Virus record (IMG/VR): IMGVR_UViG_3300042936_000610
Location: 1-32,321 of that record
From: a virus
DNA length: 32,321 bases
Reading direction: 5' to 3' (one strand)
Shown here: piece by piece, positions 29,724-32,321 of the stretch
How positions within the stretch are numbered: position 1 is the first letter of the stretch
Layout of the letters: every line of letters begins with the position of its first letter
Program-made: the position numbers and the translations under genes
Notes under the pieces: model-generated
Databases searched by the model: none
The model's input: the letters and a program-made list of their open reading frames with translations, nothing else
What the model was told of the DNA's origin: nothing

Positions 29724-29738
29724 GTGACACTTTGTCAC
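29724..29738 (-). terminator. Hairpin at the methyltransferase stop codon
   Basis: The arms GTGACA and TGTCAC (3-base loop) form a 6-bp stem overlapping the methyltransferase stop codon. A competing stem, AAAGTG with CACTTT (29719-29733), overlaps it. The following minus-strand bases are A/T-rich but not a clean U-run, so this is a possible, weak terminator. Confidence 0.4.
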
Positions 29739-30658
29739 GGGTTGTTAATATGTTTACCTTTAATTTTATAGTAATTGGCATCAATACCCTTATCCTCTAA
29801 AAGATTTTTAGGTATATATTCATCTCCAGTCTCTATAAAGTGATTTAACCGTTTAGTCCCAAACTCAACGTTGAATGGTACCAAATCTACGCCAATAAAC
29901 TTTCTATTGTTTTTAAGTGCCGCAATACCTGTGGTAGATGATCCTGCAAATGGATCCATAATTACGTCACCTTCGTCACTACCAATTCTTACAAACCAAT
30001 CAACTAACTCCACAGAAAATGGTGCAGGGTGTAGAACACTAGGGTTTGTTTCTGAAGCCGCAATTACTACATTATGTGGTAATGAACCTTTTTCGTTTAA
30101 TTCCCTCATTTGTGAGTCATACACACCATCCCTCGATCCGATAGTTGTCACTGGTTTAAGAAATCTTTTTTTAGTAACTTCTGAATGTTCAGTTCTACAA
30201 TTATCTGCCCTAAATTTAGGTTTATTAGAGTTGGAGAAATGGAAAACATACTCATATCTATCAATCGCCCTATATTTACAGTTTGTTGGGATTGCGTTCT
30301 TTTTAAACCATATATATGGTTTCGCAACCAAATACCAACCCTGTTTACGCATTTTATATTTTAACTCATCTAAAACTGGGTGAATCACCCCATCGTCTAT
30401 TTTATCGTTGATATTTAAGAAAAAACTACCATTAGGTTTTAAAACTTTAAGAAATAAATCAGTAAATTCTAAAAACCAATCCGCATAATCGTCAACGTGT
30501 ATCGAACCAACCTCACCATCATTATTACCGCTATAGTTCTTTCTCATAGAATAATATGGGGGTGATGTAAAAATCATATCAACCTTTTCATTCGACTCAA
30601 TCATTTCTTTTAACACATTTTTAGTGTCACCCAAAATAACTTCATATTGACTTTTCAT
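29735..30658 (-). CDS. DNA methyltransferase, beta-type (SPPY), N4-C or N6-A
   Basis: A 307-residue S-adenosylmethionine-dependent DNA methyltransferase. Motif IV is TSPPYY (31-36), and motif I, DPFAGSSTTGIAA (235-247), comes after it, so motif order is IV then I, as in the beta class. The SPPY form is common in N4-cytosine methyltransferases but also occurs in N6-adenine enzymes. KNRKFIGVDL (about 250-259) is motif II, and LKPNGSFFLNINDK is motif V-like. A target-recognition region lies between, about 120-215. No restriction endonuclease is next to it, so it may be a lone methyltransferase that protects phage DNA or changes its modification. It has a Bacteroidota-type promoter and no late element in its own direction. 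Confidence 0.92.
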   Translation of the reverse strand: MKSQYEVILGDTKNVLKEMIESNEKVDMIFTSPPYYSMRKNYSGNNDGEVGSIHVDDYADWFLEFTDLFLKVLKPNGSFFLNINDKIDDGVIHPVLDELKYKMRKQGWYLVAKPYIWFKKNAIPTNCKYRAIDRYEYVFHFSNSNKPKFRADNCRTEHSEVTKKRFLKPVTTIGSRDGVYDSQMRELNEKGSLPHNVVIAASETNPSVLHPAPFSVELVDWFVRIGSDEGDVIMDPFAGSSTTGIAALKNNRKFIGVDLVPFNVEFGTKRLNHFIETGDEYIPKNLLEDKGIDANYYKIKGKHINNP

Positions 30659-30681: not shown

Positions 30682-30713
30682 CAAAGATAAGGATATTTAT
30701 AATAAAAAACAAA
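30682..30713 (-). promoter_or_regulatory. Host-type promoter of the methyltransferase gene
   Basis: On the minus strand, TTTG (30713-30710) is followed after 20 bases by TATCTTTG (30689-30682). This matches the Bacteroidota consensus of -33 TTTG and -7 TAnnTTTG with about 19-21 bases between. The ATG (30658) lies 23 bases beyond. The match is good, but by eye only. Confidence 0.55.
30693..30700 (+). promoter_or_regulatory. Late promoter element ATATTTAT before clpC
   Basis: GGATATTTATAATAAAAAAC lies 19 bases before the ATG at 30720. It sits inside the spacer of the opposite-facing host-type promoter of the methyltransferase gene, so the two would compete for polymerase. Confidence 0.62.
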
Positions 30714-30719
30714 TCGTAT

Positions 30720-32321
30720 ATGAAAAAGATTTTGCCTAAGGTGAAGAAAATCATAAATATGTCCATCAAACAGGCTAAATTTTATGGGGACAATGAAGTA
30801 AAGATTGAACATATAATCATCTCATTGATAAATGATTATAATAATAATGCGGTTAAGGCGTTAATAAGTATGGGTGTTGATGTAGATAAACTACATAAGA
30901 GTATTGAGAAGAAATTACATAAGGATAGGGACGATTTTAACACTATGTTGGTAAATAAAAAAGAGTTCCCTTTGGAAATTGTAACTGAAAATATTTTGAA
31001 GGGTGCAGAAAAAGAATGTGATTTGATGAATAATGAATATTTGGATACGGAACATATTTTGTTGGCAACATTAAAAGTAAAAAATGACATAAGTAGTATA
31101 TTAAAAGGGATGAAAATAAATTATAACAGTTACAAAACTTCTATCGAAAACTCTATTGAGCCAGTAAGTGGAGATGGTGAAGACAATTTCAGTAAAATAC
31201 CCAAACCAAAAGGTAGTACTAAATCCAACGACACCCCTATTTTAAATAATTTTTCTGTGGATGTAACTAAAAGGGCGTCTGAAGGTAAAATTGATCCTGT
31301 AATTGGTAGGGATGAGTCCATACAAAGAGTTGCACAGATTTTGGCTAGGAAGAAAAAAAATAATCCAGTCTTAATTGGTGACCCTGGTGTTGGTAAAACT
31401 ACAATTATTGAGGGTTTAGCGTTAAAAATTGCACAGGGTGATGCACCTAGAACTTTATTAGATAAGAGAGTTGTGTCATTAGATTTAACGTCTTTAGTTG
31501 CAGGTACTAAGTATAGAGGTCAGTTTGAGGAAAGAATAAAAGGTGTGGTGGATGAATTAATGGAAGTCGATAATGTAATCTTATTTATTGACGAATTACA
31601 TACTATGGTAGGTGCGGGTAACTCATCAGGTTCTATGGACGCTGCGAATGTATTAAAACCTGCGTTGGCTAGGGGTGATATACAGTTGATTGGTGCAACT
31701 ACTTTAGATGAATATAGAGAACATATCGAAAAAGATGGTGCATTAGCGAGAAGATTCCAACAAGTTCTAATTGAACCACCTACAATAGAGGAAACAATTC
31801 AAATATTAGATAAAATTAAATCTTCATATGAAACTTACCATAAAGTAACTTACCCATTAGTAACTATTGAACATTGTGTTAAAATGGCTGACAGATATAT
31901 TACAGATAGGGAATTTCCTGATAAGGCAATTGATATTATGGATGAAATAGGTTCAAAAAGTCAACTATCTATCAAACCACCATCATCTATAAGTAAATTG
32001 GAGGAGAAGATTGTTGAAATTAAGAACAGAAAAAGTGAGGTTGTTAAGAAACAAAAATACGAAGAGGCTGCAAAGTTAAGAGATGAGGAAAGGGAGGTTA
32101 ATGAAAAATTAGTTTTAGAAAAAGAAAAATGGTTAACAAATTTGAATAACGAAAGAACTGTTGTAACCATTGAGGATGTTAATGAAGTGGTGTCTTCAAT
32201 GACTGGAATACCATTAAAAAGAATTAGTGGGGATCAAGGTAAAAGGATGTTAGAGATTGAAGGTGAGTTAAAAAAATCAATTATAGGTCAAGAAATTGCG
32301 TTGGAAAAGATTGCCAAATCT
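30720..32321 (+). CDS. clpC: ClpC-type AAA+ unfoldase (partial, cut by the window end)
   Basis: The first 534 residues of a ClpA/B/C family unfoldase, which threads proteins into ClpP or unfolds them. An N-domain (1-145) has the twice-repeated EHIIISLI (30-37) and EHILLATL (111-118) helices. The first AAA+ domain follows: PVIGRDESIQRVAQILARKK, Walker A GDPGVGKT (220-227), Walker B ILFIDE (287-292), sensor region GATTLDEYREHIEKDG and Arg finger ARR (343-345). Then comes a middle helical domain with KYEEAAKLRDEEREV (446-460), the UVR-like segment typical of ClpC rather than ClpB, and the start of the second domain (SMTGIPLKRIS, SIIGQEIALEKI). The middle domain is short, against ClpB. Start: the ATG at 30720 follows a late element. 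Whether the ClpP-binding loop is present lies outside the window. Confidence 0.93.
   Translation, partial: MKKILPKVKKIINMSIKQAKFYGDNEVKIEHIIISLINDYNNNAVKALISMGVDVDKLHKSIEKKLHKDRDDFNTMLVNKKEFPLEIVTENILKGAEKECDLMNNEYLDTEHILLATLKVKNDISSILKGMKINYNSYKTSIENSIEPVSGDGEDNFSKIPKPKGSTKSNDTPILNNFSVDVTKRASEGKIDPVIGRDESIQRVAQILARKKKNNPVLIGDPGVGKTTIIEGLALKIAQGDAPRTLLDKRVVSLDLTSLVAGTKYRGQFEERIKGVVDELMEVDNVILFIDELHTMVGAGNSSGSMDAANVLKPALARGDIQLIGATTLDEYREHIEKDGALARRFQQVLIEPPTIEETIQILDKIKSSYETYHKVTYPLVTIEHCVKMADRYITDREFPDKAIDIMDEIGSKSQLSIKPPSSISKLEEKIVEIKNRKSEVVKKQKYEEAAKLRDEEREVNEKLVLEKEKWLTNLNNERTVVTIEDVNEVVSSMTGIPLKRISGDQGKRMLEIEGELKKSIIGQEIALEKIAKS

Follow-up and report, generated by a model that had tools for sequence, protein, structure and literature searches.

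The virus record analysed here ends in a gene that, judged by its sequence, encodes a functional two-ring AAA+ unfoldase of the ClpC family. The gene is a core member of the T4-like phage lineage to which the record belongs, and its phylogeny points to one old acquisition, or a common origin, near the ClpC proteins of Bacteroidota, followed by descent with the phages that carry it. The window is the whole of this IMG/VR virus record (32,321 bases), and clpC is cut only by the end of the contig.

Domain organisation and class of the phage protein

An ATG at position 30720 starts a frame that stays open to the last base of the window (30720..32321, + strand) and supplies the first 534 codons of an 821-codon gene. 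The full protein of 821 amino acids was read from L007, an overlapping IMG/VR record that is 99.97% identical to the window over 11,647 bases and holds a complete copy of the gene (L007:10046-12508). On the window frame Pfam recognised Clp_N twice (5.8e-17), AAA (1.2e-13) and AAA_lid_9 (1.2e-26); the Clp_N repeats lie on the + strand at 30774..30911 (E 1.1e-9) and 31005..31157 (E 4.4e-10). In the sequence of the first AAA+ domain (D1) the Walker A motif GDPGVGKT occupies 31377..31400 (+), with a Lys that is invariant in all rows compared, and the Walker B motif LFIDE occupies 31581..31595 (+), with an invariant Asp-Glu pair. The middle domain scores as a UVR motif (Pfam, 0.00019), and the UVR profile, the PDB match and the alignment all place the UVR-type coiled-coil of a ClpC middle domain at 32001..32102 (+). 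Against the PDB, the longer frame matches B. subtilis ClpC best (1.5e-124, residues 21-548), and the nearest solved structures are ClpC proteins of the B. subtilis and S. aureus type. The sequence-only reading had recognised a Clp N-domain, a complete AAA+ module and a ClpC-like middle domain, all of which are present, and its proposal that a second AAA+ domain and a ClpP-binding loop might be found past the contig end was borne out by L007: the second domain (D2; Pfam AAA_2 and ClpB_D2-small) and a VGF loop both lie beyond the end of the window.

The assignment to ClpC rather than to ClpA or ClpB draws on several features together. The N-domain consists of two Clp_N repeats, and both AAA+ modules have intact Walker, sensor, Arg-finger and pore residues, D1 being read in the window and D1 with D2 in L007 and relatives. 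Walker A and B, the sensors, the Arg fingers and the KY and GYV pore loops are kept in all nine window-clade proteins and are near-invariant across the remaining aligned sequences, phage and bacterial alike. The M-domain is of the short, single-wing kind with a UVR motif; Y447, R454 and D455 of the window protein correspond to F436, R443 and D444 of B. subtilis ClpC, and these equivalents (Y for F436 in the phage) are likewise kept in 9/9 window-clade proteins. The [VIL]GF docking loop expected in D2 of ClpC reads VGF in the nine window-clade rows (the window's own taken from L007) and [VIML]G[FY] in every other phage row aligned. In the tree the protein is placed with ClpC and apart from ClpA and ClpB, which were represented by few outgroup rows. 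ClpB was rejected, since the NCBIfam score of 851 bits falls short of the cut-off of 1232, the ClpP loop is present, and neither of the ClpB traits sought, a long two-wing M-domain and absence of the ClpP loop, was matched. ClpA was rejected too (757 bits against a cut-off of 993), since it is without the M-domain that is present here. A defence-system reading was set aside because the PADLOC matches cover only single AAA+ stretches of ClpC and look generic. One phage ClpC of 881 amino acids (L422; G034:18124-20517) is short of about 28 profile positions in D1, possibly through a D1 deletion.

The gene is under strong purifying selection, with a dN/dS of 0.025-0.058 between close relatives over its whole length. 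Identity between phage and bacterial ClpC is 27% in the N-domain and 64% in D1, and that between the ClpC proteins of Bacteroidota and Firmicutes is 32% and 63%. We dropped N-domain acceleration as proof of special retargeting because the two bacterial phyla have diverged from each other about as far. The match of catalytic, pore and M-domain regulatory residues to host ClpC, and the near-universal occurrence of ClpC/Clp relatives in Bacteroidota (117 of 118 genomes), are what might be expected if the phage protein joined or replaced subunits in host ClpC hexamers and so redirected or poisoned host proteolysis. We consider such a competing subunit improbable: with every catalytic residue intact it is no dead subunit, and identity to host ClpC is only about 54% in D2 and 44% in the M-domain.

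A core gene of one T4-like lineage

The window encodes T4-like gp23 (2.5e-72), gp20 portal (9.2e-77) and a T4-type TerL. A thymidylate synthase gene and a divergent N6/N4 DNA methyltransferase gene (29735..30658, - strand) adjoin clpC, and close relatives keep the latter next to clpC. A scan of IMG/VR yielded 33 loci, and at least 593 IMG/VR stretches that encode relatives turned up in a profile scan. Relatives of the window were found by portal and TerL searches, and their larger contigs were then searched for ClpC and pooled with the 33-locus scan. Every record reaching at least about 15 kb on the proper side of portal and TerL carries clpC (about 20 records, no exception). Contigs of relatives that gave no match fall short of the clpC site or barely reach it, and one, L148, stops inside the first codons of the gene. 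The gene is absent from the complete genomes of three distant T4-like phages, Flavobacterium phage immuto, Microcystis phage Mel-JY01 and Rhodothermus phage RM378, so it is core to the window's lineage and not to all T4-like phages. The earlier view that a full ClpC is unusual for a T4-like phage thus holds for these distant genomes and fails among the sampled close relatives, in all of which clpC is a normal, syntenic and conserved member of the gene set.

The position of clpC against the contig end is the one point in favour of bacterial DNA misassembled onto a phage contig, a possibility that the sequence-only reading had itself raised. Phage genes flank clpC on both sides in L007 and in many independent records, and contamination is scarcely credible as a source of the gene.

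The largest window-clade records suggest that genomes of this clade are probably about 150-170 kb, below jumbo size, and the host of the lineage is probably a member of the Bacteroidota. In one relative a gene for a small heat shock protein, HSP20, has been inserted close to clpC (L011:8458-8904). Shared N-terminal tags, among them MKKIIRLTESDLQRIVKRVIRE, MKTLNEEVNRIREMMGLLTE and MRIIITETQLKRVLLYE, occur on 21 of 210 predicted proteins in the L006 phage (L275-L283, 166 kb) and L007:13631-20494, with ends resembling the (L/I)xE sites of T4 gp21; four tagged proteins are encoded directly downstream of clpC. Such N-termini were found in 0 of 635 cases in Flavobacteriia loci, and the tags are candidate capsid-targeting sequences of the T4-like kind.

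Ancestry of phage ClpC

Fifty phage ClpC proteins form one clade beside Bacteroidota ClpC (SH-aLRT 99.7) in a tree of 92 proteins from which the longest branches, L030 (39% identical) and the RaK2-type ClpA, were left out; with long branches kept, support for the phage clade is 87. An AU test rejected a grouping of the window clade with Flavobacteriaceae (p-AU 3.3e-57), and ClpC identity tracks that of portal (Pearson 0.963) and TerL (0.930), with none of 2000 permutations as high. The single clade, the AU rejection and the congruence with portal and TerL together argue for an old origin and descent with the phages, likely beginning with an ancient capture close to the root of the Bacteroidota ClpC group. 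Sampling of ClpC outside the Bacteroidota was thin, and with two Firmicutes rows it cannot name the donor. The best bacterial matches are Bacteroidota ClpC proteins at 49-53% identity, which would fit a recent capture of a host clpC, and acquisition from a host had been proposed on such resemblance. As a recent event this is highly improbable, given the support for a single phage clade, the rejected Flavobacteriaceae origin and the congruence with the two structural and packaging markers. One huge uncultured phage, LR756502, has a ClpC that is nested among those of the Bacteroidota, which indicates that independent captures of ClpC occur elsewhere.

A promoter-like motif upstream of clpC

The octamer ATATTTAT lies at 30693..30700 (+), 27 nt ahead of the clpC ATG, and recurs before other genes of the window. 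It occurs within 50 nt upstream (at 20-37 nt) of 9 of the 31 genes in the window, where a first-order model predicts 0.57; the nine, which include the portal gene, start at 2901(+), 6974(+), 13414(-), 14773(-), 16712(-), 20431(-), 25394(-), 26244(-) and 30720(+). We found it upstream of clpC in 10/10 window-clade loci and in none of three more distant loci tested. It is distinct from T4's octamer TATAAATA and is a candidate for the late promoter used by this lineage, late timing being suggested by the identity of the genes that carry it. The attribution to clpC of a late promoter of its own is thus upheld as far as the promoter-like motif goes, and is plausible as to lateness.

ClpP in related phages

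No ClpP gene was found in the window clade, including records of 166, 152 and 127 kb. Among larger IMG/VR virus records with ClpC, 13 of the 24 tested encode ClpP, as do G020 and three named phage records (RaK2 and two huge uncultured phages). The phage clpP genes (G175-G182, G184, G185, G187, G189, G193 and G020; L036 and L459-L467) are unlinked to clpC. The search for a phage ClpP proposed with the sequence-only reading gave nothing in the window clade and succeeded among these larger records. The Ser-His-Asp triad is in place in all eleven phage ClpP sequences read. The one sequence scanned against NCBIfam matched true ClpP best, at 241.6 bits (below the equivalog cut-off), versus 75 bits for the head-maturation family. 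The presence of ClpP in related viruses suggests that proteolysis in the cells they infect is probably run or reprogrammed by these phages.

A branch without the N-domain, its UVR neighbour and inteins

One monophyletic branch of phage ClpC (support 100) is without the N-domain, and a separate N-domain gene was found near none of these clpC genes within the loci examined. At 21 of 49 distinct loci of this type the divergent gene directly upstream, on the opposite strand, encodes a protein of about 120-160 amino acids with C-terminal UVR repeats (L026, L295, L406, L411-L413, L417, L421, L424-L427, L429, L430, L435, L438, L445, L446, L450, L455 and L456). It is found at 0 of 53 loci whose ClpC has an N-domain (Fisher 1.2e-8, a value that overstates independence, the sequences being related), and no such neighbour lies near clpC in the window clade. 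UVR motifs are found both in the M-domain of ClpC and in McsA, an adaptor of ClpC, and for that reason the neighbour is a candidate ClpC adaptor. The genome of L006, a close relative of the window, encodes an unlinked 160-amino-acid protein with one C-terminal UVR motif (L325:1105-1584; G002 24667) that is possibly an unlinked adaptor.

Inteins with splice-type residues (C...HN|T) break the P-loops of several phage clpC genes. They occur as single-ORF inteins in D2 (L014, 9998-13516; L017), as fractured or split inteins in D1 (L019, 10025-13234; L031; L032) and in both D1 and D2 (L029, 10079-15786; L034, 5293-13875). Several are fractured into more than one ORF, their halves being set apart by endonuclease-like or other reading frames. 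The window clpC has no D1 intein, and our search of the literature on phage ClpC inteins returned nothing relevant.

Proposed role of phage ClpC

We favour, with somewhat better than even confidence, a late-expressed phage ClpC that docks on host ClpP and brings its own choice of substrates. Inherited with the structural genes of its T4-like lineage, the protein would most likely be made late in infection; its diverged N-domain may pick substrates, directly or via an adaptor, while the middle domain would restrain it as in bacterial ClpC, the D1 and D2 pores would thread the substrates and the VGF loop would dock the ring on host ClpP for degradation. Sister phages would bring their own ClpP. 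The role linked to ClpP is preferred because the docking loop has been kept through a long separate history, which argues for its use with ClpP, and because sister phages encode ClpP. Against it stand the lack of ClpP in the window's own clade and the position of clpC among structural genes, which would equally fit a role in assembly.

An unfoldase or disaggregase that acts in virion assembly independently of ClpP, for instance by remodelling head or tail intermediates or by unfolding internal capsid proteins before they are loaded, is the next in rank, and is in our judgement unlikely. It would account for the structural neighbours and late-type motif of clpC, for the four proteins with a T4 capsid-targeting-like N-terminal tag directly downstream, for the HSP20 gene in L011 and for the ClpA-like gene of RaK2 that sits among virion genes; it would leave the ClpP loop, kept in all phage rows, and the ClpP genes of many relatives to be explained. 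A more ambitious extension of the ClpP-linked reading, which we offer tentatively, is that a broad T4-like branch has a long-evolved ClpCP module of its own, with ClpC in all members and ClpP in many, that a dedicated two-UVR adaptor replaces the N-domain in the branch without one, and that the window clade represents the variant whose ClpC is coupled to host ClpP.

That Clp ATPases are core or common in large phages is already known. The occurrence of ClpP in over half of the larger ClpC phage records tested is new, and a partial literature search found no description of the ClpC-type (rather than ClpA) identity of this clade, of its monophyly and descent, or of the N-less branch with its UVR neighbour and the P-loop inteins. 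Nor did the literature surveyed demonstrate what any phage-encoded Hsp100 unfoldase does. A conserved phage ClpC with clear motifs, matching ClpP proteins in relatives, a natural N-less variant and a candidate adaptor give concrete material for asking which proteins a phage breaks down or unfolds at late stages of infection.

Comparison with known systems

Bacterial ClpC, as in B. subtilis (ClpC/MecB) and the Bacteroidota, has the same two Clp_N repeats, D1, single-wing UVR-type M-domain and D2 as the phage protein, and shares with it the F/Y-R-D regulatory residues and the [VI]GF ClpP loop. The phage proteins differ in forming a separate clade at about 50% identity overall, lowest in the N-domain, and in the late-type promoter motif and phage neighbourhood of the gene.

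Moraphages, large phages predicted to infect Bacteroidota, list 'ClpA' (VOG02072) among their shared VOGs, with 24 occurrences (Table 2 of PMC12619734). Like the gene described here, it is a Clp ATPase conserved in large phages whose structural genes are of T4 type, and VOG02072 is probably the same gene group as several of our phage ClpC proteins. It was named ClpA (PMC12619734), whereas the M-domain of ClpC, which ClpA is without, is present in the phage proteins we examined; the window clade is also probably below jumbo size. Jumbo phages encode ClpP, ClpS, ClpA and ClpX (PMC7824862); seven Clp-like proteins are encoded by Atu_ph07, and most RaK2-like phages share a conserved ClpA (PMC6102473). 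In these RaK2-like jumbo phages, as in the ClpC relatives studied here, an Hsp100 unfoldase is conserved in the lineage and ClpP is encoded elsewhere in the genome, but their unfoldase (PHROG_4871; NC_019526 ORF069) is of the ClpA type, 34% identical and far off in the tree. Small phage proteins are known to modulate host ClpCP. SPO1 encodes an adaptor-like modulator of B. subtilis ClpCP (PMC6873191). It likewise acts on host ClpCP, through an adaptor-like protein, whereas the window phage supplies the unfoldase itself.
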